A DNA stretch of 22,573 nt from a virus. The notes under the pieces are model-generated. The model saw only the letters and a list, made by a program, of their open reading frames with translations, ran no database searches and had not been told where the DNA came from. The position numbers were made by a program, and so were the translations under genes. The DNA lies in the IMG/VR virus record IMGVR_UViG_3300021962_000703, positions 1 to 22,573 of that record; one strand, given 5' to 3'. Of this stretch, positions 1 to 15,169 are shown piece after piece. Position 1 is the first letter of the stretch. Every line of letters starts with the position of its first letter.

Positions 1-3000
1 TTTCATCCCAACTGTAAATACTCCAGAAATTCGAAGCTGTCGAATCTGTTTCGACTAATACAGAGAATGGTCTTATTTTTGCGATACAACTGCTGTATTT
101 TCTTCCTCGATTAGTAACAGCTACGCCGGTCACACGACCTTGTGTATCAATAGTAGCTACTGCTTTAGCACCGATTCCGTTTCCTTCAAACTCTACTGGC
201 GGAATTACTCTGTATCCAAATCCAGGATTAGTAACATCAATGGTATCAATTTCTCCATCTACTATATTAACCCTTAGTGTTGCCTGTGTAACTCTGCTGG
301 TTCCTACTTCTGCTAGATCTGCATAGGTATCTACACTGGTATCATATAAATTTAATACTGCATTCGGCGCAGTATCTACGAGATTCAAATTAGCAAAATT
401 TATAATATCAGCAAATGGTTCTAAAGTTAATGTCGAGTTAATACTTACTATTAAATTTTTCAATGCTTGTATTCTATTAACAAACATTGTTTGTCTCGGA
501 CGGAAATTTAGACCGTATTGTTGTTTTGCTGGTAATGCGGAATCTGGTACTCTGTTACCTGCTAAATCTCTACCAACTAAACTATCAATCCATTTATTTT
601 CTAATTGTACTGTTGGTAAACTATCAGCGTCTCCCTCAGTTAATAACTGATATTCTTTGTGTACAAGATTGGTAGCTTTACCGCTATTATTTTTATAATA
701 TTGTACATTAATAGTTGCGGTATCGACATCTAAAACATTATCAAAATTATATGTAAGGAACTTATCAGAATCAATTAAACTTATAAATGTAACTCCAGAG
801 CCTCCTGGATTATTAATCAAAGAAGCAACTGCTGATGCTGATTGATTCCTTCCCAATACGTTAGGAACAACGACACTATTTTTAACCCAATAGTAATAAA
901 GAGTTTCAGTCGCAACACCAGTTGTTGGATTGTATAATTCTTTCACAGAATAAACATTGTCATTAGGATATAACGGTTGTCCTGATATTCCTTCGGCCAA
1001 TCCGTCATTGGTGTCTGCTAACACAGCCCACTCACTAGGAAGTAATGGAGTTTCTACCCACTCATAGATATCAATACTAGCACCAGTTGCTAAGGTATTC
1101 CAATGTCCAATCCTATATGATAGATCACCTTGTTCATGATAAACCCATTTTGCTGTAGATATGTTCCACCATATTTTTCCAACATTATTTTCAGTCCAAG
1201 CCATGTCAGGAATAACATTTTGTTCTTCAGTACCAACGTTATAAATTGCAGGATCATATATAGTTTTGAAACTGATCTCTTGTTCCGCTGAATTTAAAAC
1301 TTTTAACTTAGCATGATCAACATAATCTAGATCTTGTATTTTAATATTATTAATATTGTCATACAATACAATACTTTTAATCATTGATAAATCTACTGTA
1401 GGTTGTTGTGATGCTAATGTTTGCAATGAATTTACAGTAGAATCTTTCTTGAATAATCTAATATATCCTATCTGGCTATCATCTATTGGTGATTTATATT
1501 TCGGTGATCCGACAACGATAGTAGAATATGTACAAGATAAACTAAATCCAAAATTTTCATATGGAGTTAGATCTGTGTCTAATTTTTCTGCCAAGAAATA
1601 AGTATTGCCTTTTTTCTCATAGACATATACAGCGCCAGCATACCCTTTTTCTTCAACTATTCTTGTTCTGTTTTCATCGAATGATGTAGTACGGCTATCA
1701 AAATTAATAAGATTAACAAAAGTAGAATCTTTAGCGCCGATAACTATTTTTTCAGCCGCTGGTGTCATACAAATACTTTGTCCGAAATATTCGTTAGGGA
1801 ATCTTTCGTAACTTTCTATTTTCTGTTTTAATCTATATTCTAAACTTGCAAATCCAGCAGTTCTAAAAATATATGCTGAACCTTGATTCTGTAAATTAAT
1901 GTCTGCTTTAGGACTTGTTATTATTAATGTTGTACCTGTATAATCAACATTAATCGAATGCCCAAACTGGTCTCCCGAACTAATTGCTGATGTTGTGTCT
2001 AAATCATTTATGTCGTCTAATGATCCAGCGGTAATTGTTTGTTTAAATTCGTATAAATCATTCTCATTTCTTTGATAGATAAAAACTTTACCTGACGCCT
2101 GTGTGGTGCTATCTCCTACTTGTTGCCAATTAGACGAATCTGTAGGATCTTCGTTATAACTTCTTAATGTACTATCAGCACCAAATACCGAATCAACTAA
2201 TTTATAATATTGATATTTAGAATCATCACCAGCATCTGCTCCTGAGACTGTCATGTCTTGATATTTGACTACTTCGCCCTCAATGTATTCAATGTCTGGT
2301 CTCCAATGACCTCTGTAATTTGCGAAATATTGTCCGTCTGCTTTAGGTAATCCAATGGCTAATATACTTCCGTCCCTGTTCATAGCCATGCTGTGGCCAA
2401 AATCGTCACCTTGTTTTATTAATTCAGCGACTTGCGTACTTCCTATTAATCCTAGTGCTAATGTAGAACCATCATCATTTACAGAAATATTTGTAGGTAA
2501 AGAACATTGTGTAGATATTGGATCAACTAATAACCAATCATTTGATTCAATAGTTATTGTGCTTCCATCTCCTGGATTGTCATATTTTGCCTGCCATAAA
2601 TCTCCAGCGTGCCAAACAATGCTTCCTGCAATATACGGACTTGAAGGATTATAGATGCCTGCATAATTTGCATTTTCTAAATGACTCCAAGATGTTCCAT
2701 TATATTTGTAAAGATAAACTCTTCCTCTTCCGTCTACTGATCCAGGAGCAGAAACTGCCATGTAATAGTTTGTACCGCTTTGACTTATTGTTACCGAAGT
2801 TCCGAATAATTCTCCTTCATTTGGTCTAGGGCTTACAAATGAATTTACTTGAACCCACTGCTGTCCTACATATTCATATATGGTTATAAACCCTTGATTT
2901 GTATATCCGCTACCTCTTCCTGCATTAGTAGCATCTATAATTGTAGCTGGTTCCCAATCTTGTGTATTGAGATCAATACTACTTCCGTCACCAGGTGCTA

Positions 3001-6000
3001 CATCATTAATACATTTCCATAATTTTCCGGAATATAATACAATGTCATTAACCTGATACGATGCAGAAGGATTATAATTTCCTTTATAATAACTATCAAT
3101 TCCACTAGCTTCTGGTGCTGATATTATTAAGAATCTACCGTCTGGACTTAGTTTCATTTCTTTACCAAAAGAACCTACTACTTCACTTGTAAATCCTGAC
3201 GGTGGCGAAATTATCTGTTTCAAAGAAAGCCCTGCAGTTGTTTCTATATAGGTCATTGCTAACCCTGAACCAGGAATACTAGAAATTACTAATTTGTGTA
3301 AATCATCATAAAGAACTTTATATCCTGTATTAAGAGGAGTTGTTGTTCCGTATTCTAAAAGTGATTTAGATGTGTATTGTTGTTTTTTCTCTATAACTTC
3401 CCATTTGTTACTACCGTCATTGTCGATCCAAAATTTCGAACCTGATTTAAGTAACGCTACTGCGCTTTGATCTAGATCTGTATAAGATTCAAATCTAGCA
3501 TTTGTTAGTAGATAAAGAGAGGCCAGCGTACTATCCGCCACATCCGGATTCTGTATAGTCGCATCAACACTTACTGTTATGGTTGTTTTTCCAGTTGCTG
3601 TGATTTTATAAAATCCAGTTAGATTGTCTACTTTTTTTATTCCGACGATTTCATTAACTTGTAAATCGTGTATTCTGTTTAATTCAACTTCAACTGTAGC
3701 ATCTGTTTTAGTAACTCCTATAATGTTTAATTCAGGTGCTTTATTAAATCTTAATACATCCCAACTATAGTTGTTGTCAAATGTAATCCATATGTGATCG
3801 TTCTCTAAAAACGTTTCTATGTCTAGATTTAGTATATCATCTCTATTTTTTACTTTGTGTTGAACGTTGTCTGTTCTAACATAACCTGCAACTCTAGTAG
3901 GATCAGCATCATAAGATGTTGGATTAACATTAACAGTAAACGGTAATGGTTTAATAGAAAAATCTGTTTCTAATATTCTATAATATTGATCTGACACATT
4001 TGAAGGTAAATTGCTTACAAATAGAATCGGCTGAGGATTGATAGAAAACTGATCTTTTTCTATATTAAATTCTAGTTCTTTAAGCTGATCTATTCCTCCA
4101 AATTTACCTACTAAGAATGCCCATTCTTCATTTAATTTTACACTAGATGCTCCGGCACGGCTTAACTTATTAAACACTTTAGTTACAGCATTGTTTGTGC
4201 CTTTTTCTCTAATAAAGCCCTGATATAATTGGAACTGTGTAATAGAATCTTCTGCGAGATTTTCTAAATATTCTCTAGACTGATATCCCACAGAATGTCT
4301 TGCTAATCTACGTTGATTAGCGCCTACTCCTTCTGAATTCACATCGTAGTAATCGTCAAACTGATTAATTCTATAATCAAAGTTAGGAACTAATTGTTTT
4401 TCAGGAGAAGAATCTAATTTAGTCCAATATGTATCGTTGAAGGTTTCTGTACCTAATTGATTAATTAAGCTGGTCCAATTATAAGAACGATATGAAACTA
4501 TATCTCCAAGTTTATAATCAGTGAATGGTTGCCATACTTGTATATTAACATTGTCAAACAAGAATCCAGGTGATGTATAATCACCGTCCCAATCTACAGT
4601 TCTAAATGCTTGTGTTTTAATACGTTCTTGTCTATATCCTGTAGTTTGATCATAGATAACATCATTGAATACTGTTCTATCATCAAATACTGTAACGTGT
4701 TCTTTAAGGACATAGAATAGTTTAATATAATAGATACCGTTAGTGGTATTAGTCGGTTCTATCACAACATTCTGGAATTGTCTATTAACATTAATAAATT
4801 GTGGCTCTAATGGTTTTCCATCATCTTTTAATACTTGATAATCGTAGAACCCGTCTAAGATATTATCTGATACCCCTACTGGTATTTCAACATCAATTTT
4901 TTCTGCGGCAGGGCTTAGTGTAATTAATGATCCGATTTCCCAATTGTGTTTGGTCCAGAACATAAATTCTTTAGACGAGGTGACCCAATCCTGTGAAGCA
5001 CCTAATTGCGGATCATATCTATCAAATACAAATCCTTGATCTTTCAGCCATTCTTGATATCCTAGTAGTAAATCAACTACTGCCTGTATTGTTGTTAATT
5101 TTGTACCGTATGCTACCTGAGAAACTCTTGTTCTATTGAAGCTTTTCCTTCTTAAGGCTCTTACATCATTAACTGTTGGGACTTCAGGCAATTTTTTCCA
5201 ATTTCTTTCTTCAAAATCGTCGCCGCCGGTATGTGTGGTTATCGATCTGTAAAATGCACTTCTATATCTAACAACTACTCCATTATTGTAAAGTTTATTA
5301 GCTTCCCAATCCGTAAATTCTTCGCTGACACCGCCCACTGAAATCGCAGGATCATTCGGCGATTCTAGAGGTTTATAATAATTGAATACAGGATTAATAT
5401 CATCATATCCAGTAGCCGTCCAGCCACCTTCTGTTTTTTCTAATATTACTCCGCTGTAAGCTACACTAGCGATAGGCGAACTTACATTAAAAATTATGTT
5501 ATAGTTTTCAGCAGGAACAAAAATACTGCTTGATGTTGATTTAGGATTTTTACTATCTAATAGATATTTTGTTTGTGCTTTATCAACAAATCCGCTAAGT
5601 CTAGCTGATAGATTAACATCGATAGATTTTATTTGAGAATCTAAGTCTGTTGTTTTCCTTCCTCTAGATTTAATATATCCTATTAGATATTTTGATAATC
5701 CGATTACATGTCCAACTCCTGAATCCGGAATAATCAAATCATTTATTGTCTGGAAAACATTAGATGTTGAATTAACTGTCTGTTCTAATATGTTAAGTTT
5801 AGTTCTAGATCTATCAAAGCTATCTGTGATAAATTCAAAAGGTTTCAATAAACACATCGCTAATACTACAGCAAATGGATATTCTGAACTAGATCTCCAA
5901 GCATATTCAACTGGGCCAACATCGCCTAATTTAAACGGTCCTGTATTATTAATTAAAGTAAAATCATTTGCTAATCCTGAATCTAACGGACTTAATAATC

Positions 6001-9000
6001 TTCCGTCACCATCTACTGGAATATGCGTTAGTAGTGTCGAACGTTTATACCTATTGTAAATACCAGCTCGGTTTCCGTGTTTAATTTCACCATTCGCTAA
6101 GTCTTCCCATAACACTAAGTTACCACTAGTATAAGGAGCTGGTCCGTATTCCTCTTCCCACCATGTTGGTTTTTCTGAGAATCCTAACATTTCCCACGGA
6201 CAACGATGTGGTCTATCAGTGTCGTAGAACCAACGATATACTCCTCTCCAATACCCGGGTAAGTTTTTAGTTCTAGTTGGATCTGTCATGTTAGAATAAG
6301 TATAGGTAAAAGAATTTTCAGTATCTAAATATTCGTTCTCAGTATAATTCACTGTTGAATTCTGAACCCATTTTAAGAATTCGGTTGCAACCACATCATC
6401 TAACGCTGGCTTTTCATACAATCCATATCCGTAATAGCCACCTACTATATTATCAATATCAAATAGTTCATAGTCATATTCTTCTTTAATATTGTTATAG
6501 ATTCTAAATTCTAATTCGAGTAATAGTTCATCTCTATAATCACCGTATGATTTGATTATGCTACCGTCGTGTCCTTGTATTACTTCTCTAGGTACTGTAT
6601 ACGTGTCGTCTATAAATTTTATAGGAGTATATTTTTTATACATTCCCATTGAGGTAGGAGTGGGTGGGACGTGACCACTAGCTGTAGATAGATACTCTCT
6701 TATTTCTATCTTATCACCTTCGCTCAAATTAACTGTTAATCTTACAAAACCAAAGGTACTATCAAATGTATAGTCACGAGAGTTAAGCAACTGTACATTG
6801 TTTAAATAAACATATACTGCTTTTCTGCTAGGAGTAATTAAATCAAATTTTTCTGATAATGCAAACGTTTTAATTCCGGTATCTTCTACCTCATATGATA
6901 TCTTAGTGTAAGCACCTGTACCTAAAACATCAGAATCTGAAAAAGGACTATCTGAATTTTTAGTTTTTGTAAGATCGGAAATAATGTCATCCACAAAATC
7001 TATTAGATTATCGTTGTAATCTAATTCGGTTGCTTTGATTAAGAAATTATTTTTAAAATCGGTATATGCTTTGCGTGCATATTGCAAAGACTTAATAATA
7101 TTATTTTCTTTGTCAGTTAATAAATGTATAGCTAATGGTGAACATCCAGAATGTTTTAAAAATCGTTTAGCATTTTTTTGATAATCATCAAGATCACGAA
7201 GATTAGATAATCCCGGAATGTTTCCACTAAATCTTTCATCAAATTCTACAGAGGACCCTATATGATCAATAGCTTCACCGAAGGTAAAGTTTCCTAACTT
7301 TTCATTTAAAGGATTTTTTTCTAGCCCTAGCGGAATTTCATAATATCCAGTAACTGGTTCTAAATCTGTTATTATTTTTATAACTACAACATCGTCTTGA
7401 ACAAACGTTTGGCTGAATGTAAAAACATTTCTATTCCTAGTATATGTTCCTGTGTAATCTTTTCCGTTTAGATAAAACTTAATTATTAATTTTTGTGATG
7501 TACTTTCTTTGGACCAATCAACACTATTAAAAGTTAGTTTATTAGTAGATTCTAAAATTTTAACATTATCAACGATCGGTTGTACAAGTTCATTATTTGT
7601 TTTTATCCAACCATTAGCATAATTGCCATCGATTTTATAGTAGCCTGTTTGAATATTTTTTGTAAATGATTGGAAATCTAGAGAATATGTAAAAGAATCA
7701 TTTTCCCAATCCCAAGTGAATAATATGTCTCCGATATTATCAATGTTTTGATAAGCGAGGCTGAATCCTAATTCAGTGTCGGTTATACTATTACCTAACT
7801 TGTAACTTAAGAGGTTTGTACCTATAAAGGTACTAACTGGATATGTATCGGCATTATTAAAACTTACACCGTTTTCATCATATGCATCAAACAGTGGTGC
7901 TTGATTAACTTTTGTTTTTTCTTGGCTTTTTACCCATTTAGTTCCATCGAAATGGAACATTTTTCCGCCATTAACTGTTCCTCTTCTACATAGGACACAC
8001 TCGCCTAAATTAGATGCAGAGTCTGTAGATGGCCTAAGTGATATTTGATTTCTACCATTATGATCTATAAAATCTACATAATAAATCTTATTATTAGCTA
8101 GATCGTCAGTGTCTGCTACGACTAAAATTCTCGCACCTTCAAACAGATCTTCACCATCGATATTATATCCAGTACTACCTTCTATGTTTGAAAATACATC
8201 AGTGGTAAAATCATCTACATAATCTACTGTCTGTTTCGCGGTGCTACCGTGATTGAATAATTGTAGATTAGGTTTAAATTCTATAATAGGACGTTTCGCT
8301 CTAGATGATTCAGTTGCTGGAAAGTCCTGTCCTCTAAATGTGTAAGCATATTCTAAAACGCTACGGTGAAACCATCGATTATATCTTGACCAAGGATTAG
8401 TATCTTGGCTGTCTCTCGAAATTGTTAGGTAATCTTTTTGTGATGGATATGCTGTAGCATCATCGAAAGGATCTGTATCAAATCCTTCGTTGTCAAAAAG
8501 CACTTCAGGTGTATCTGTGGTCAATACAGGAACTATTAGATCACTAAACTTAGTTAAGGTGATGGCATCTCCCACCCCTTCTATCAACCAAGACTCAGAA
8601 GCATACTTTGCTGGAGTGATGTTTCCTTGGAATTCAACTACTAATCCGTTTGTGAATGCTACACCATTACTGCTGGTGTATGTTGTTTTACCAAGGACTT
8701 CATTTTCTATATCGATGAATGTATTAGATTCGATGTCGGCAATGATAAATCTTCCGAATCTGTTTGGTGTGATCAAACTCTGATAATACAACACATCCGG
8801 AGCATCATAAGGAACTTTGAATGTTAATGTTCCATTAGCGATTCCATTGTTAGTGACACCATCGTTATATTCTAGAGCGGTTCCGCCTGCGATGTTTTCT
8901 ACGAATTTCCAATCCTCAGTTTCTAAATCAATAGTACTGCCGTCGAGTGGAGGAATATCTCTAACTGCTTGCCATAGCTTTTCATCATAGACAGCATATT

Positions 9001-9685
9001 CATTTGTTCTATAAAGTTTTTCAGGACGATATATCAATGATCCAGTATCATAATTGGTTCTAATGTATAGACCTTCGCCTGGAGAATTAACTATAAATTT
9101 GTATTCTTGTCCTCTATATAACGTTATAGCAGGGTTACCTGTTAGTCCGTCTGGAGTGAATATAAATGTTTCATCTACACCTTGTTTTACTTTATAGGTG
9201 CTAGTTACTGTTGCTCGTTGTCCATACACTGCCACCGCTGGTGGTCCAGATGGTTCCCAATAGTATTCTCTGTAGTTGATAAACTTATCCCAATTGATAG
9301 GGGGATTCCAACTGTAGTGTTCTTGGCTAGTGATTAAATCGTCACGTTCTTGATCGTTGCCAAAGAACTTGAGCATATTTTTAAAATCGAGATAGTCGTG
9401 GAAACTAGTGATGTTCTCACCGCTTTTGGTAATGACGCCTGGTTCTAACTGATATCTACTTCTTAGTGTTTGATCTGTATCGAGATATACATCCTTACCG
9501 TTGTAGGTTTTTCCATATCGCTTTCCTAGATATCCAACCAGCTTTTGTAATTTTCCTGGCTGTACCAATGGATCAACGACCGCAGACATAAACTTATCGT
9601 TGATATCTGTCTGAAAGGTATTGGGTAAAAGATCGCTGGTCTTTCTTATAGGTAATCCGCTTTCAGGAAACTGTTTATCTGCCAT
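1..9685 (-). CDS. Giant baseplate-associated virion structural protein, C-terminus beyond window
   Basis: The frame is open from the ATG at 9685 to the left edge: 3228 codons with no stop. I spot-checked the frame at several points. The start lies one base after the gp6 stop, with no strong Shine-Dalgarno, so translation is probably coupled. Visible parts, by residue: a conserved N-terminus (LPNTFQTDINDKFM, then DTDQTLRSRYQLEPGV) typical of large structural proteins of marine T4-like phages; an LYRGQEYKFIV beta module at 184-211; a W/Y module at 220-264; an aromatic-rich stretch (GYWRGVYRWFYDTDRPH, WEMLGFSEKPTWW) near 1140-1190; W/Y modules near 1460-1500 and 1714-1759; an FG-GAP-like propeller with further W/Y modules at about 2165-2730; and GxGY repeats at about 3140-3200. 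Following gene 6, it occupies the position of T4 gene 7 (wedge initiator, 1032 residues), but I cannot show homology to gp7. Role in baseplate or host contact is inferred from modules and position. Confidence 0.85.
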   Translation of the reverse strand, partial: MADKQFPESGLPIRKTSDLLPNTFQTDINDKFMSAVVDPLVQPGKLQKLVGYLGKRYGKTYNGKDVYLDTDQTLRSRYQLEPGVITKSGENITSFHDYLDFKNMLKFFGNDQERDDLITSQEHYSWNPPINWDKFINYREYYWEPSGPPAVAVYGQRATVTSTYKVKQGVDETFIFTPDGLTGNPAITLYRGQEYKFIVNSPGEGLYIRTNYDTGSLIYRPEKLYRTNEYAVYDEKLWQAVRDIPPLDGSTIDLETEDWKFVENIAGGTALEYNDGVTNNGIANGTLTFKVPYDAPDVLYYQSLITPNRFGRFIIADIESNTFIDIENEVLGKTTYTSSNGVAFTNGLVVEFQGNITPAKYASESWLIEGVGDAITLTKFSDLIVPVLTTDTPEVLFDNEGFDTDPFDDATAYPSQKDYLTISRDSQDTNPWSRYNRWFHRSVLEYAYTFRGQDFPATESSRAKRPIIEFKPNLQLFNHGSTAKQTVDYVDDFTTDVFSNIEGSTGYNIDGEDLFEGARILVVADTDDLANNKIYYVDFIDHNGRNQISLRPSTDSASNLGECVLCRRGTVNGGKMFHFDGTKWVKSQEKTKVNQAPLFDAYDENGVSFNNADTYPVSTFIGTNLLSYKLGNSITDTELGFSLAYQNIDNIGDILFTWDWENDSFTYSLDFQSFTKNIQTGYYKIDGNYANGWIKTNNELVQPIVDNVKILESTNKLTFNSVDWSKESTSQKLIIKFYLNGKDYTGTYTRNRNVFTFSQTFVQDDVVVIKIITDLEPVTGYYEIPLGLEKNPLNEKLGNFTFGEAIDHIGSSVEFDERFSGNIPGLSNLRDLDDYQKNAKRFLKHSGCSPLAIHLLTDKENNIIKSLQYARKAYTDFKNNFLIKATELDYNDNLIDFVDDIISDLTKTKNSDSPFSDSDVLGTGAYTKISYEVEDTGIKTFALSEKFDLITPSRKAVYVYLNNVQLLNSRDYTFDSTFGFVRLTVNLSEGDKIEIREYLSTASGHVPPTPTSMGMYKKYTPIKFIDDTYTVPREVIQGHDGSIIKSYGDYRDELLLELEFRIYNNIKEEYDYELFDIDNIVGGYYGYGLYEKPALDDVVATEFLKWVQNSTVNYTENEYLDTENSFTYTYSNMTDPTRTKNLPGYWRGVYRWFYDTDRPHRCPWEMLGFSEKPTWWEEEYGPAPYTSGNLVLWEDLANGEIKHGNRAGIYNRYKRSTLLTHIPVDGDGRLLSPLDSGLANDFTLINNTGPFKLGDVGPVEYAWRSSSEYPFAVVLAMCLLKPFEFITDSFDRSRTKLNILEQTVNSTSNVFQTINDLIIPDSGVGHVIGLSKYLIGYIKSRGRKTTDLDSQIKSIDVNLSARLSGFVDKAQTKYLLDSKNPKSTSSSIFVPAENYNIIFNVSSPIASVAYSGVILEKTEGGWTATGYDDINPVFNYYKPLESPNDPAISVGGVSEEFTDWEANKLYNNGVVVRYRSAFYRSITTHTGGDDFEERNWKKLPEVPTVNDVRALRRKSFNRTRVSQVAYGTKLTTIQAVVDLLLGYQEWLKDQGFVFDRYDPQLGASQDWVTSSKEFMFWTKHNWEIGSLITLSPAAEKIDVEIPVGVSDNILDGFYDYQVLKDDGKPLEPQFINVNRQFQNVVIEPTNTTNGIYYIKLFYVLKEHVTVFDDRTVFNDVIYDQTTGYRQERIKTQAFRTVDWDGDYTSPGFLFDNVNIQVWQPFTDYKLGDIVSYRSYNWTSLINQLGTETFNDTYWTKLDSSPEKQLVPNFDYRINQFDDYYDVNSEGVGANQRRLARHSVGYQSREYLENLAEDSITQFQLYQGFIREKGTNNAVTKVFNKLSRAGASSVKLNEEWAFLVGKFGGIDQLKELEFNIEKDQFSINPQPILFVSNLPSNVSDQYYRILETDFSIKPLPFTVNVNPTSYDADPTRVAGYVRTDNVQHKVKNRDDILNLDIETFLENDHIWITFDNNYSWDVLRFNKAPELNIIGVTKTDATVEVELNRIHDLQVNEIVGIKKVDNLTGFYKITATGKTTITVSVDATIQNPDVADSTLASLYLLTNARFESYTDLDQSAVALLKSGSKFWIDNDGSNKWEVIEKKQQYTSKSLLEYGTTTPLNTGYKVLYDDLHKLVISSIPGSGLAMTYIETTAGLSLKQIISPPSGFTSEVVGSFGKEMKLSPDGRFLIISAPEASGIDSYYKGNYNPSASYQVNDIVLYSGKLWKCINDVAPGDGSSIDLNTQDWEPATIIDATNAGRGSGYTNQGFITIYEYVGQQWVQVNSFVSPRPNEGELFGTSVTISQSGTNYYMAVSAPGSVDGRGRVYLYKYNGTSWSHLENANYAGIYNPSSPYIAGSIVWHAGDLWQAKYDNPGDGSTITIESNDWLLVDPISTQCSLPTNISVNDDGSTLALGLIGSTQVAELIKQGDDFGHSMAMNRDGSILAIGLPKADGQYFANYRGHWRPDIEYIEGEVVKYQDMTVSGADAGDDSKYQYYKLVDSVFGADSTLRSYNEDPTDSSNWQQVGDSTTQASGKVFIYQRNENDLYEFKQTITAGSLDDINDLDTTSAISSGDQFGHSINVDYTGTTLIITSPKADINLQNQGSAYIFRTAGFASLEYRLKQKIESYERFPNEYFGQSICMTPAAEKIVIGAKDSTFVNLINFDSRTTSFDENRTRIVEEKGYAGAVYVYEKKGNTYFLAEKLDTDLTPYENFGFSLSCTYSTIVVGSPKYKSPIDDSQIGYIRLFKKDSTVNSLQTLASQQPTVDLSMIKSIVLYDNINNIKIQDLDYVDHAKLKVLNSAEQEISFKTIYDPAIYNVGTEEQNVIPDMAWTENNVGKIWWNISTAKWVYHEQGDLSYRIGHWNTLATGASIDIYEWVETPLLPSEWAVLADTNDGLAEGISGQPLYPNDNVYSVKELYNPTTGVATETLYYYWVKNSVVVPNVLGRNQSASAVASLINNPGGSGVTFISLIDSDKFLTYNFDNVLDVDTATINVQYYKNNSGKATNLVHKEYQLLTEGDADSLPTVQLENKWIDSLVGRDLAGNRVPDSALPAKQQYGLNFRPRQTMFVNRIQALKNLIVSINSTLTLEPFADIINFANLNLVDTAPNAVLNLYDTSVDTYADLAEVGTSRVTQATLRVNIVDGEIDTIDVTNPGFGYRVIPPVEFEGNGIGAKAVATIDTQGRVTGVAVTNRGRKYSSCIAKIRPFSVLVETDSTASNFWSIYSWDE
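95..270 (-). repeat. GxGY-type beta repeats in giant protein
   Basis: Two units of about 37 residues are visible: GEIDTIDVTNPGFGY and GRVTGVAVTNRGRKY, linked by PPVEFEGNGIGAKAVATI. This V-x-V-T-N-x-G-x-x-Y pattern with G/A-rich linkers is common in tail and fibre proteins of marine T4-like phages. The repeat series may continue beyond the window. Confidence 0.5.
2520..2660 (-). repeat. W/Y module 5 of giant protein (CBM5/12-like)
   Basis: Residues about 2342-2389. It reads YNPSSPYIAGSIVWHAGDLW, then NPGDGSTITIESNDW. It is the best sibling of the module at 2945-3085 and lies between propeller blades two and three. The pattern Y-x2-G-x2-V-x3-G-x-LW is the usual look of CBM5/12-type domains. 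Confidence 0.55.
2945..3085 (-). repeat. W/Y module 4 of giant protein (CBM5/12-like)
   Basis: Residues about 2201-2247. It reads YNPSASYQVNDIVLYSGKLW, then GDGSSIDLNTQDWEP. The opening NPSxxYxxxxIVxxxGxLW and closing DW match the copy at 2520-2660 closely, so the two look like an internal duplication. It sits between the first two propeller blades. Confidence 0.55.
8895..9028 (-). repeat. W/Y module 1 of giant protein (CBM5/12-like)
   Basis: About 45 residues (220-264) with the core EYAVYDEKLWQAV, then PPLDGSTIDLETEDW. It shares with the modules at 2945-3085 and 2520-2660 the pattern LW[QK][AC], a run of about eight residues containing D and P, DGS[ST]I, and a closing DW. The pattern resembles small chitin-binding modules (CBM5/12 and ChiC-type) with spaced aromatics. 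Carbohydrate binding is inference. Confidence 0.5.
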
Positions 9686-9686
9686 A

Positions 9687-12600
9687 TTATTCTGTACTTG
9701 TTACAAATGCGTTGATATTCGCCCTAACTTCTGTCGCTGAAATGCTTGATACTATTTCAACATCATCAACTGTGGCTCCACTGATTAAAATCTCATCTGG
9801 TTGGCTCTGTATCTCAAATAGGCTACCGAACTCTTGATCTGTCTGTCTTGGAACTAAGACCATATTTGATATATCAGGAGCGACTTGATTAACGATATAT
9901 GTTATTAATTCGCTGACATAAAATCTGTCTCCGAAGTCCCAATTATTGATATCAAAAAATTCGTTGATAGCACTGACTATCCTAACTTTTAAGTCATTAT
10001 CGTTTATAGTTTCGCCAGGATTTTTTACTACCTTAAATGATGCCTGAAGTTTAGTTTCTGCTTTAGCACCAAATAAAACTTTGTATCTCACAGGATGATA
10101 TATTATTTCATCTGATATAGATTTGATAGCATTTAATTTTCCACCAAATGTGACCCTTAATGCATCTGTAGTTGGTGCTTCTGGTTCTGTCGTCGTTCCG
10201 CCTGCTAACCAAACTCTGTATGCTTGATCATAGCTACGTGTTAATAGATAGGTATCTATGATGTTGCTTGAACTAGGATCGATCCTGCGATCGACTGTGG
10301 CATTATGGATGTACTGGAATTTGATCTTATCTCTACCATACACCCCTTTGTAACCACTTTCTAAAACTAATGTGTTCGTGGTCCTATTCACACGCTTTAC
10401 TCTGTCTTCATTTACATCATAAAAATACACCAATTGTCCGTCTGGATAAGTTGTTGTATCATTAAAATCTAACAAAGACTCTTTCTGTAAAATTTTAATA
10501 GTATCATTTGTGTTATCGATTAGCTGATAGGCTGTAGCTCCCGAGACATCTACTATCTGTTGGAAAAACAAGAAATTTAGATCACTATCGACGCCTACGA
10601 TCTGCTCAAACGATTCTGGATTATCGATCACGCCATCGTCGTCGCTGTCATAGAATGCTAATTTGATCTCTTCGGCAGACTCGTACCCGTCGTCAAACTT
10701 GATAGTATCATCTATCTCGAAAGAGAAATCGCTGTATAATGGAGTGATGAAATCGCTACCTGTATTGATACCTAATACTTTGATCTGATCTTTAATGACA
10801 TTGCCTAATGTATCATTGTATTGTTTTTCGCTGGCATCGAAATAGAATCTATTCTGCTCTTTGCTACCAAACACATATTCCATAGATCTCACACGGACCA
10901 CATATTCATCTGCTTCTTTAACAAATGCTAGATACCAAGAGCTGTCTAGATTGCTGTTTGTGATATCGCCTGCTTTACCTAAACTAAATGCATTTAATAA
11001 ATTTAAGTTTGATGCTGTGATTATTTTCCAAGCAGATTCCTGCACATCGAATCGCAGACCAAAGTTTAAATTCTGGAAAATCTCATTGGTTATTTCTGTT
11101 TCTAAAGATGTTGGAAGATCATTAACGAATCTCGGAACTACTCTCGATGCTATCGCGCCTGAAGGCACAGTGTCACTGAAGCTCACAGGTCCTAGTCCTG
11201 AAGATAATATTCCTCTGTCTGCGTTGGTTCCATCACCTACGATGTTAATAGTTTTTGTCCAGATCCTATCTGTCTGCAATGGATCTGACGCATCAACATT
11301 AACTAATTTTCCTTTCCTAAATGCTTTACCTGTAGGTGGTATGAATTTAATCATAGCACCTGTGAATAGGTATTGTAAATTGTTCGTCGAATATGACCCA
11401 GTTTTTAATAAGGTATTATCAACAGCATTTTTAAAATATCCTGTTGTTAAATTAGTATCAGTGGTAACTTGTTCCCAGATAACATTGTTGTTAGCGAAGA
11501 TGATTTTTTCTTCTTTAGTTAGATAGAAATTATAGACATCGGTGCTGGAAAACAAAGGCTCGATACTGCGTTTAATAAAATTAATGATATCGATTCTTGA
11601 TGTAAATTTAAAGGTGATGTTCTTTTCAGTTTCTTCTTTGAAAATATATCCATCATCTGCGAACACATTGATATCGCTGTATTTTCCAGAAGCATCGATG
11701 ATCTCATAGTTCCGTGAAATACCGCTGGCTGTCCTATTCACTGATTTTACTTTTAAAATATCTTGTGAGCTAGATAGTGGTGCTAGGTTATAATCTTCAC
11801 CAGTTACCATCCTATTCTGTGTATAATAAACAGCAGGTGCGTTCTGTCTGATATTATCTGTGCTTTCTGATCCTGATGCTGTAGCTACAGTGTATTGTAA
11901 ATCTAATCCTATGGTCAATGTGTGTGACAATCCCTGTTTATTCACATAAGGAATAGCGATGTTGATACCTCTCATTTCATTTGGAGATATCGTGTAAGAC
12001 AATCCATTTGAAACTCTGTAGTATGTTCTAAATGCACCTTGTGGAAGATTACCATAGACGCCATCGGCGAATGTTAAATCAATTTTATCATCCTCTTTGG
12101 TGATAACATTATAGATATTTCTTATGTCCTGTGTCACAGAATTATAAGCGATATTGTTTCCTATCAGACTCTCGACTTTTTTCCACTCGTCTTGTTGTAC
12201 TCCGTCGGGGCTCAATTTAAACAACCAAACATCGTTGTTATTGATATTAGGTGTATCGATCGCGACCGTTTCGTTTGTGGTAGGAACATCGATTTCAAAA
12301 TCTGCGAGCTCTAATGATCCCTGTTTGAACATTAGATAAAATCCTGTGTTAGCACTGCCTGGACCTTTACCATCATTACGATAAATGAACCCCATCTGGT
12401 TTCCTGGCACCGGTGGTTCCTCGTAGATCTCTTCTGATCCTTGGAAACTAGTCGAAACTACTTCGAAAGCCATTCCTCTGCCACTGGCTGTTTTAGAATA
12501 AGTGAAGATAGGAACGTCAGTGTTGGTGCTCCTAAATCTATATTGTTCTGTCCTGATACCTTGGATGGTAGAGACCCCTTGGCTACGTCCGAATTCTGTG

Positions 12601-13100
12601 TTGTCGCTCATCGCAGAATTTAGGATCACTAAAAATTGTTCTAACCAATTATTGTTAGTTGGGTCGTTCCACTGTATAATCTGTTCTGCTAGATTTTTTC
12701 CGTTGCTATCAATAAGGCTTTCAGATGTAGTAACTGTAGCGAATTTTAATAGCCCTTGTCCAGGAACATTTCTCTTAGCGTTATAAGAAAGCATACGTGC
12801 CAATCTCAACACGCTTTCCCTGCGTTCTGCTAATTCGATAAAGTTTTCTCTTGATGCTAGATCAACACGGAATGCTAAACTCTGTCCTAGGAATGCTACG
12901 GCATCGATTAGTGCTAGATATTCTGATGACTCTACATAATCGTTGAAATCTTCTGGATAATTCTCACGGATATATGTGATAATCACCCTACGGAGATTCT
13001 CGAAGTCGTAGGATTTGAAATCAGCGTTTTTAAACGTTTGATAGATCCTAGTCCAATCTTCGTTTAGTAGTAAATTATTTTGTCTTGATGTAGTTGCCAT
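9687..13100 (-). CDS. 6: Baseplate wedge protein gp6
   Basis: A structural subunit of the baseplate wedge; in T4, gp6 dimers join the wedges into a ring around the hub. The N-terminus (DFENLRRVIITYIRENYPED and YLALIDAVAFLGQSLAFRVD, residues about 33-80) is the hallmark of the T4 gp6 family. A baseplate-J-like segment, RMVTGEDYNLAPL, lies near residue 428. The C-terminal region (about 985-1137), with INEFFDINNWDFGDRFYVSE, matches the conserved end of gp6. At 1137 residues it is much longer than T4 gp6 (660), with the extra length in the middle. That extra part holds an EF-hand-type loop at residues 818-829. The start is preceded by AGGAA at 13108-13112, seven bases before the ATG. It lies in the leftward baseplate operon, with a 42-base gap to gp25 upstream and one base to the giant gene downstream. 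Confidence 0.95.
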   Translation of the reverse strand: MATTSRQNNLLLNEDWTRIYQTFKNADFKSYDFENLRRVIITYIRENYPEDFNDYVESSEYLALIDAVAFLGQSLAFRVDLASRENFIELAERRESVLRLARMLSYNAKRNVPGQGLLKFATVTTSESLIDSNGKNLAEQIIQWNDPTNNNWLEQFLVILNSAMSDNTEFGRSQGVSTIQGIRTEQYRFRSTNTDVPIFTYSKTASGRGMAFEVVSTSFQGSEEIYEEPPVPGNQMGFIYRNDGKGPGSANTGFYLMFKQGSLELADFEIDVPTTNETVAIDTPNINNNDVWLFKLSPDGVQQDEWKKVESLIGNNIAYNSVTQDIRNIYNVITKEDDKIDLTFADGVYGNLPQGAFRTYYRVSNGLSYTISPNEMRGINIAIPYVNKQGLSHTLTIGLDLQYTVATASGSESTDNIRQNAPAVYYTQNRMVTGEDYNLAPLSSSQDILKVKSVNRTASGISRNYEIIDASGKYSDINVFADDGYIFKEETEKNITFKFTSRIDIINFIKRSIEPLFSSTDVYNFYLTKEEKIIFANNNVIWEQVTTDTNLTTGYFKNAVDNTLLKTGSYSTNNLQYLFTGAMIKFIPPTGKAFRKGKLVNVDASDPLQTDRIWTKTINIVGDGTNADRGILSSGLGPVSFSDTVPSGAIASRVVPRFVNDLPTSLETEITNEIFQNLNFGLRFDVQESAWKIITASNLNLLNAFSLGKAGDITNSNLDSSWYLAFVKEADEYVVRVRSMEYVFGSKEQNRFYFDASEKQYNDTLGNVIKDQIKVLGINTGSDFITPLYSDFSFEIDDTIKFDDGYESAEEIKLAFYDSDDDGVIDNPESFEQIVGVDSDLNFLFFQQIVDVSGATAYQLIDNTNDTIKILQKESLLDFNDTTTYPDGQLVYFYDVNEDRVKRVNRTTNTLVLESGYKGVYGRDKIKFQYIHNATVDRRIDPSSSNIIDTYLLTRSYDQAYRVWLAGGTTTEPEAPTTDALRVTFGGKLNAIKSISDEIIYHPVRYKVLFGAKAETKLQASFKVVKNPGETINDNDLKVRIVSAINEFFDINNWDFGDRFYVSELITYIVNQVAPDISNMVLVPRQTDQEFGSLFEIQSQPDEILISGATVDDVEIVSSISATEVRANINAFVTSTE

Positions 13101-13118
13101 TTATTCGTTCCTATATGA

Positions 13119-13126
13119 TATTTAGC
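13119..13126 (-). promoter_or_regulatory. Possible weak late promoter element before gp6
   Basis: The minus strand reads GCTAAATA, six of eight matches to the T4 late element TATAAATA. It lies in the only appreciable gap (13101-13142) of the baseplate operon. A start about six bases downstream would give a very short leader beginning close to the AGGAA at 13108-13112. The match is imperfect, so this is tentative. Confidence 0.25.
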
Positions 13127-13142
13127 ATACCCAATTAAGTGC

Positions 13143-13580
13143 TTAGTTAATGACAGAGTTCTCTTTGTCAAAATCAAATGTCATACGTTCATTCACATTG
13201 AATGGAACATAAGTAACATCTGCCTGTATGCGGATACCCTGGTCTGTGGTATCAACCTGTACTTCATTAACCACGATCCTCGGATCATAATTAATAATAT
13301 CTTCAACATCTTTAGCGATCATAGTTTTAACATCTTCTGTAAAGTTTTCAAACAACATATCCCATATCACGGTGCCAAATTCAGGATTTTCTAACTTCTC
13401 TCCCTTGCGAATATAGAAATGGTTGATCAAATCTTGCTTGACTAGATCTATGTCATAGAGTTTAAAATTACGACTGGTTTCTTTGCTACTAAACCCTTTG
13501 TAAGTAAATACTCCGCCTTTGTCTCCCACGGTAGCTACATTAGTCGCTACTGTTTTTTGATTGTAAAGTCTGTTAGCCAT
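13143..13580 (-). CDS. 25: Baseplate wedge protein gp25
   Basis: A small wedge subunit of the gpW/gp25 family, which in T4 helps trigger sheath polymerisation and sits against gp6 and gp53 in the inner baseplate. The family core is at residues about 45-77: DLVKQDLINHFYIRKGEK, then NPEFGTVIWDMLFE. The C-terminus holds the beta-alpha elements DPRIVVNEVQV and ADVTYVPFNVNE. The length, 145 residues, is close to T4 gp25 (132), with a longer N-terminus. The ATG shares one base with the gp5 stop (TAATG), and GAGAGGA lies about seven bases before it, so translation is likely both coupled and independently initiated. In T4, gene 25 is not next to gene 6; the 5-25-6 order is that of marine T4-like phages. 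Confidence 0.95.
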   Translation of the reverse strand: MANRLYNQKTVATNVATVGDKGGVFTYKGFSSKETSRNFKLYDIDLVKQDLINHFYIRKGEKLENPEFGTVIWDMLFENFTEDVKTMIAKDVEDIINYDPRIVVNEVQVDTTDQGIRIQADVTYVPFNVNERMTFDFDKENSVIN

Positions 13581-15169
13581 TATACGTTCCTCTCTCTATC
13601 AGTTTCTGCTGGATCTACGTATGTAGGAACTTGGTTTTCGTGCAACACCCAAGGTTCGTGCATCGGAATCCTTTTTACTATGCTATCAACTAAAAGTGTT
13701 TGATATTTGGTGCTCCAACTTAATGTAGGATCTGTCTTAGGATTTTTATGCGTTGATAGCGGATTAATCGCAGTAGCTTTTTGTGCTACTGGTCCATTCA
13801 TATCAATCCTTGTGGCTGTTTCAGTATGATTACCTCCACTATTGATATCAATGTTTCCTCTCGTGGTAATTTTTGTGCTTCCGCCGACTACTAAATCGCT
13901 GTTGCTACCAACTGTTATCTGTCTGTTGTTGCCAGCGATCATTTTAGTGTTCCACTTGCTTTCGATATAAACCCTACCACTTTCAAAATTATTTGAGTCA
14001 AGTTGTGCATTGTTTGAATATTCTGCAGATGCTTTTAAATTAATATTCCTTCCAGCTTCCATATTAATGTCTCTGTCTGCTTTGATGTTCAGATCATTTT
14101 CAGTGTGGATGCTTATGCTATCTCTAGCATAGATATCTATCTTGCCGTTTGATGTTAGTTCTATCCAAGTAGTTCCTTTTGAATTTCCAATATAAATTAA
14201 ATCTTCTGAATTGTGCATCAATAATTGATGTCCAGTTCTTGTTCTCAATCTCACATATTCATTGTATGGGATATCTGAATTACCTTTTTCACCGTTTTGT
14301 GTGTCAGCATAATCTACTGGTCCTTCACCTGCTGGTGTTTTTCTTTGATACCTATCATCACCATCGTCCATCACGAACTGTGTGCCACCTAATCTGCTCA
14401 CAGGTACTGGCTTAGGTGTTTGGCTTTCATTTACTCCTATCTTGGCTCGTTTTGCTCCATTCTTTCTATCGAGAGGTCCTGGAGTAGATATACCAAATAC
14501 CATACTAGGAACTTCTCTACGAGCTGATGATGTTGTGGTTCCTCTAGCATCATCTTCTATCAATCCTTGTCTTAGGAAATGTTCTGCGATAGGATGTAGA
14601 GGCTTTTTAAATTTTTCTACATCTATCTTTTTTCCTTTGGATCTGTTTAATCTTCTGTTCGCTTCTGCTACTGGTAACGGCATTTTTCCTGTACCAGGCC
14701 AGTTATAGGTCTTTTTATCAGCTTCGTCTATTTCAACTTCGCTCGATCCTGCTATAGCAGGAACCATATGGTTACCAAAATTACTAGGTATGCAACCGAT
14801 CCAGAACCCTTGTGAAGGATCTCCATCTACAAATGTTACTAATACCGTGACACCTACATCAGGTGGGACAAACCACATACCATAACTTTTTTGTGTATCA
14901 TTATATGCTTCGTAAGTGGATGCGCCGTCCTCTGTGCTGTTACCGCCCATAAATTCATAACCAGTGTATCCAAAGAATGGCATCGCACATCTTACCACAT
15001 AGGTTTGTGAATCATCTCCTAGAGTATTACCTTGTTCTCTTAACAGGGTAACTTCTAATGCTCCCATAAAACTAGGATCTAGATGGCTTACAATTTTTGC
15101 CAGATAGGTTCCTTCGCCGACTGATCGGGAATCTGTTTTGCTGATCGTTGATCTTTTTTCAATAGCCAT
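13580..15169 (-). CDS. 5: Baseplate hub spike gp5, without lysozyme domain
   Basis: The central spike of the baseplate that pierces the outer membrane. Residues about 20-128 form the gp5/VgrG-type OB-fold (TYLAKIVSHLDPSFMGALEV, then MWFVPPDVGVTVLVTFVDGD and GFWIGCIP). A linker follows (about 130-310; NWPGTGKMPLPVAEANRRLN). From about 310 to 455 come short strands of a triple-stranded beta-helix needle, for example KIDIYARDSISIHTENDLNI and ADRDINMEAGRNINLKAS. The C-terminal tail has HEPWVLHENQVPTYVDP. The length (529) is near T4 gp5 (575), but the T4 lysozyme domain between OB-fold and needle is replaced by the linker, as in cyanophage gp5. The start is one base after the hub-gene stop; GAGAAG lies upstream. 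It should form the hub with the protein encoded at 15171-17546. Confidence 0.93.
   Translation of the reverse strand: MAIEKRSTISKTDSRSVGEGTYLAKIVSHLDPSFMGALEVTLLREQGNTLGDDSQTYVVRCAMPFFGYTGYEFMGGNSTEDGASTYEAYNDTQKSYGMWFVPPDVGVTVLVTFVDGDPSQGFWIGCIPSNFGNHMVPAIAGSSEVEIDEADKKTYNWPGTGKMPLPVAEANRRLNRSKGKKIDVEKFKKPLHPIAEHFLRQGLIEDDARGTTTSSARREVPSMVFGISTPGPLDRKNGAKRAKIGVNESQTPKPVPVSRLGGTQFVMDDGDDRYQRKTPAGEGPVDYADTQNGEKGNSDIPYNEYVRLRTRTGHQLLMHNSEDLIYIGNSKGTTWIELTSNGKIDIYARDSISIHTENDLNIKADRDINMEAGRNINLKASAEYSNNAQLDSNNFESGRVYIESKWNTKMIAGNNRQITVGSNSDLVVGGSTKITTRGNIDINSGGNHTETATRIDMNGPVAQKATAINPLSTHKNPKTDPTLSWSTKYQTLLVDSIVKRIPMHEPWVLHENQVPTYVDPAETDRERNV

Follow-up and report, generated by a model that had tools for sequence, protein, structure and literature searches.

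A giant virion protein encoded in the window, i.e., the whole 22,573-nucleotide stretch analysed from the IMG/VR virus record IMGVR_UViG_3300021962_000703, was found to carry a predicted seven-bladed propeller with three small CBM5/12-fold modules, and this conserved combination probably provides docking or adhesion elements rather than chitin-type sugar binders. The FG-GAP propeller is built into a virion protein of T4-like jumbo myoviruses that is probably a neighbour of the baseplate, with the modules placed on the adjacent blades 2, 3, and 4 and presumably emerging from the same face. There, the modules may anchor the giant protein to baseplate or fibre proteins next to it, or engage in generic contacts of low specificity.

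The giant ORF belongs to phrog_10938 by its profile match and by its position after the gp25- and gp6-like baseplate genes (Table 1). The gene order gp5-gp25-gp6-giant protein was the same as in the T4-like jumbo myoviruses 121Q and PA5oct, and genes for a late sigma factor, SbcD and SbcC were found nearby on the opposite strand. Complete relatives of the protein are mostly ~4200–4930 aa long, which shows that the window copy is without its C-terminal part, and one relative (L104) sits on a 280-kb contig. The PA5oct homologue gp355 is annotated in its record as seen by ESI-MS/MS, and CBB_236, the likely homologue in phage CBB, was identified in virions by 21 unique peptides (PMC5259590). By analogy with these homologues, the giant protein is probably located at the baseplate in the virion, and its probable host is likewise judged from the homologues. 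No solved relative of the giant protein was detectable by sequence, and no relative in bacterial genomes was confirmed. In two relatives (L019, 4852–11917 and 11901–18432; L021, 4852–12073 and 11901–13908) the giant ORF consists of two overlapping frames split inside the propeller, which may reflect a frameshift from sequencing or a genuine division of the gene. In Vibrio phage 2.275.O (L073), a large protein annotated as "carbohydrate-binding module family 5/12" (9998–13861) is found directly before the giant gene, at the place of the gp6-like protein.

Table 1. Features of the giant protein gene and its neighbours in the window (nucleotide positions of the window; aa, residues of the giant protein).
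Feature	Position	Strand	Residues	Remarks
Giant virion structural protein ORF	2..9685	minus	3228 aa	Open at contig end; phrog_10938 "virion structural protein", E 1e-295
Seven-bladed FG-GAP/integrin-type beta-propeller (predicted)	1445..3376	minus	aa 2104–2747	
M1	8897..9034	minus	aa 218–263	Outside propeller; profile match; closest relative of M4 within the protein
M2	5186..5311	minus	aa 1459–1500	Outside propeller; Pfam and profile match
M3	4412..4537	minus	aa 1717–1758	Outside propeller; Pfam and profile match
M4	2945..3079	minus	aa 2203–2247	b-c loop of blade 2; PF02839 match above the cut-off (27 vs 26.2 bits)
M5	2522..2656	minus	aa 2344–2388	d-a connection from blade 3 to blade 4; PF02839 18 bits, E 9.7e-5
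M6	2111..2308	minus	aa 2460–2525	Longer module; b-c loop of blade 4; family-profile match, E 0.0004
Baseplate wedge subunit (gp6-like)	9687..13100	minus		Directly upstream of giant gene; phrog_10646, E 2e-295
Baseplate wedge gp25-like protein	13143..13580	minus		PF04965
gp5-like baseplate hub protein	13580..15169	minus		phrog_13211, E 3.5e-44; PF04717

PF14312 (FG-GAP_2) matched the giant protein with an E-value of 7.4e-15 (55.3 bits; Pfam cut-off 23). An AlphaFold2 model of the window propeller made from a 27-sequence alignment (pLDDT 80.9, pTM 0.81) showed integrin alpha chains as top PDB matches in Foldseek, and its matches in a viral library included FG-GAP proteins from both phages and giant viruses. 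One relative that is naturally without M5 and M6 (L012) was modelled as seven blades of four strands each (pLDDT 85.7, pTM 0.88) and matched integrin alphaX (Foldseek E 4.8e-14). Seven four-stranded blades were found in the predicted secondary structure of both L012 and the window; the N-terminal strand at aa 2104–2109 is the last strand of blade 7, with the closure of the propeller read from strand order and count. In the window model, blade 6 has a hairpin in its b-c loop too. Since the L012 propeller is complete without M5 and M6, the modules are additions to a whole propeller and their W/Y segments are inserts. Small beta-rich repeats near blades can in general mimic modules, but a reading of the W/Y segments as ordinary blade strands was ruled out by the alignment and model of L012, is at odds with the PF02839 match over the cut-off, and must be regarded as extremely improbable. 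The original prediction of an FG-GAP propeller with inserted CBM5/12-like modules that lie outside the blade strands was thus borne out by Pfam, by AlphaFold2, and by a natural variant lacking two of the modules.

The three segments on which that prediction was based, two close copies (2945–3085 and 2520–2660) and a longer variant, were all present in one open frame on the minus strand and correspond to M4, M5, and M6; the proposed span of 2258–3085 covers M4 and M5 and cuts through M6. They are a subset of six CBM5/12-like modules in the giant protein, the other three (M1–M3) being outside the propeller. PF02839 (CBM_5_12) matched the whole protein with an E-value of 4.4e-15 (55.9 bits), and both PF02839 and PF14312 were above the Pfam cut-off in the same protein. 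Individually, M2, M3, and M5 were below the PF02839 cut-off, M1 and M6 were detected only by the profile built here, and a search in NCBIfam gave no match at all. M4 and M5 were identical at 20 of 43 positions, a score that was reached in 0 of 2000 shuffles, while M1 and M4 were the highest-scoring pair (19/42 identical) and M2 and M3 formed a second pair. Chance origin of the module similarity was ruled out by the Pfam scores and the shuffles. A recent two-copy duplication of M4 and M5 was not favoured, since M1–M4 outscores M4–M5 and the positions are fixed across relatives. M6 showed no detectable similarity to M4 or M5 in pairwise comparison; it resembles the remaining modules weakly, and its core aromatics are kept in relatives.

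Modules and blades had also been predicted to alternate. This order was seen in the alignment and in two structure predictions, except that only M5 is found between two blades, M4 and M6 lying inside blades 2 and 4 according to strand order in the predicted structures. The b-c and d-a loops of beta-propellers are on one face, and M4, M5, and M6, which occupy such loops, should therefore project from one face; judging from this topology, they would form one crowded patch there. The confidence for M5 in the window model was moderate (block pLDDT about 64–72). An extra module was found in the c-d loop of blade 2 in one relative (L062), which would place it on the opposite face, so the one-face rule is not absolute.

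Conservation was analysed in 64 dereplicated full propellers, comprising the window and IMG/VR relatives collected by searches that favour close sequences. M4 was present in all 64 and M5 in 61, whilst M6 was detected in 59 by profile and in 63 by aligned residues; four relatives hold M6 residues below the profile threshold, and M6 is truly absent only in L012. M5 is absent in L007, L008, and L012. The mean pairwise identity was 0.44–0.47 for the modules compared to 0.47–0.66 for blade and linker segments. In 33 close pairs, which share sequences and are not independent, the modules had a median omega of 0.09 and the blades one of 0.05, and module dN was ~1.5 times blade dN. The modules are thus under purifying selection that is somewhat relaxed compared to the blades, and no diversifying selection on the modules was seen in these pairs. 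The CBM5/12 core pattern of aromatics and Gly/Val was conserved, with Y2210, V2216, Y2218, W2223, and W2244 in M4 and equivalents in M5 and M6. It might be argued that the modules are expendable spacers, i.e., stable domains of small size that propeller loops tolerate and that have no dedicated binding role, as would fit the loss of M5 or M6 in the relatives named above, the further module in L062, and the small modules nested in M4–M6 of relatives. However, the constant presence of M4, the occurrence of at least two of the three modules in 63 of 64 relatives, the low omega, and the strictly conserved core positions make this explanation unlikely.

Several variants of the propeller were observed among the relatives. 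When L031 was compared to L036, L041, L045, and L068, module dN was ~three to four times blade dN, which suggests module replacement or recombination in the L031 lineage. A second small module with the pattern YTIxxLGTTDWxxIxGTxGxxYxVGDxFxAxxxGxGTGT was found nested within M4, M5, or M6, or just ahead of blade 4, in L005, L006, L048, L049, L052, L059, L036, L045, and L055 (alignment columns about 120–215, 545–625, 720–780, and 880–925), giving a three-level nesting of domains. Four relatives (L006, L036, L045, and L055) contain a conserved ~90-residue insert (NHNxxTGQxVxYxNGTYxG...TSPPPPxDYTILYxxR) in the c-d loop of blade 3 (alignment columns about 405–525). One more CBM5/12-like module, missing from the window, was found in the C-terminal part of L006 (aa 3966–4008), L012 (aa 3682–3725), and L015 (aa 3832–3871).

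The modules share with CBM5/12 domains (PF02839; ChiA1 chitin-binding domain, PDB 1ed7; chitinase, 2rts) the succession of W/Y, Y, G-D-x-V-x-Y, W/Y, and a terminal W, as well as a similar length and the profile match. They differ in the second half, where M4 and M5 instead have the conserved loop GDGS(S/T)I; M1 has a DGSTI loop, and M2 and M3 have a Phe in this half. The stretch that separates the core W/Y from the terminal Trp contained no Trp in M4 or M5 of any of the 64 relatives, and thus neither module has a surface Trp of the ChiA1 W687 type or of the CBM5 type in its second half. This stretch is the one in which chitin-binding members such as ChiA1 (W687) have their chitin-contacting Trp. 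The PF02839 match to M4 spans only positions 1–24 of 44, which correspond to the structural first part, and the conserved aromatics of the modules are those of the fold core. An additional aromatic in M5, W2358, is Trp in 89% and aromatic in all of the relatives, and could act as an unconventional contact. A profile of the six modules matched best, among solved structures, the chitin-binding modules of chitinases and chitin deacetylases (2rts, E 2.9e-6; 3wx7, E 9.3e-6), and the same profile matched the N termini of phage fibre and spike proteins (9rkv residues 29–67, E 0.0012; 8fqc gp124 residues 30–67, E 0.014). Residues 1–175 of the Milano gp124 are a tail-binding module, the globular domains 26–120 and 121–175 of which are wedged between baseplate wedge proteins (PMC10811340), and the distal CBM of the neck fibre of phage A-1(L) showed no binding to host cells (PMC10966104).

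The missing contact Trp, the tail-binding location in gp124, and the lack of binding in A-1(L) together make docking or generic adhesion moderately more probable than binding of the chitin type. Several points weigh against a docking role: the solved chitin-binding modules outscore the spike and fibre matches, W2358 is conserved, the faster module dN is partly to be expected of binding surfaces, and the pLDDT of M5 is moderate. The original prediction had the modules presenting several sugar-binding surfaces on one disc, in which case they would be genuine carbohydrate-binding modules mediating multivalent adhesion to host glycans. Their family membership by profile, their number on one face, their faster change compared to blades, and W2358 are consistent with this, and repeated CBMs in phage adhesion devices have a precedent in the Vinitor162 Tal, for which five CBMs per subunit are predicted (PMC8540738). 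However, the absence of the contact Trp from M4 and M5, the restriction of the Pfam match to the core half, the strong purifying selection, and the like modules M1–M3 elsewhere in the giant protein leave sugar-binding surfaces unsupported, and we consider this a possible but clearly less probable explanation. It is somewhat more doubtful still that the propeller acts as an integrin-like adhesion head, in which the ligand face with three grafted lectin-type modules would make up a multivalent receptor-binding patch, and modules would be gained, lost, or swapped to shift adhesion. Docking or generic adhesion of the giant protein through its modules thus remains our preferred interpretation, and a phage tail protein labelled as CBM5/12 does not necessarily bind sugar.

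Compared to the integrin alpha propeller (PF14312; PDB 5es4, 9t5z), the window propeller likewise consists of seven four-stranded blades and has FG-x-S and GAP-like motifs, and differs in its three small CBM-fold modules on blades 2–4, in an identity of only ~10–15%, and in being part of a phage virion protein. In I-domain integrins, a domain is inserted between blades 2 and 3. Phage FG-GAP_2 propellers are known from Vibrio phage nt-1 ORF127, S-TIM5 gp054, Phosso protein 108, C48C1, and an uncultured freshwater phage, and no CBM5/12 match was found in these five proteins. Sinorhizobium phage Phosso (L075) also has a separate giant protein (57900–68978) with at least nine FG-GAP_2 repeats and laminin-G-like domains, and is therefore another case of integrin-type repeats and a lectin-like domain in one phage protein. 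In the Milano tailspike gp124 (8fqc) and the phage 7-7-1 tail fibre (9rkv), the module-like stretch is found near the N terminus and not in a propeller. The giant proteins of phrog_10938 (121Q gp582, PA5oct gp355, Atu_ph07 gp180) showed a homologous core and the same gene order, and most contain a CBM5/12-like module; in the homologues from Atu_ph07, Phosso, PA5oct, and SCTP-2, a module was found at a location similar to that of M2, which suggests positional equivalence. FG-GAP_2 was matched in 5 of 11 scanned members, which most likely are the window protein and four IMG/VR relatives. The stretch equivalent to the 846 residues of the window measures 324 residues in PA5oct and 240 in 121Q, and Atu_ph07 and Phosso have ~1490 residues of other make-up there. 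No match of a known phage to the propeller part was found, the listed tblastn matches all being in the upstream core (query up to aa 2561). As had been supposed, no described phage protein with both a propeller and CBM5/12 modules was found in the open-access literature. Across the jumbo myoviruses, giant virion proteins are encoded beside baseplate genes, and one of these proteins here gains a clear domain anatomy, in which a domain-in-domain build, with small modules on a propeller face, is kept across a large group of environmental phages. As far as seen, this combination of known parts appears to be new and occurs in a group of uncultured jumbo phages.
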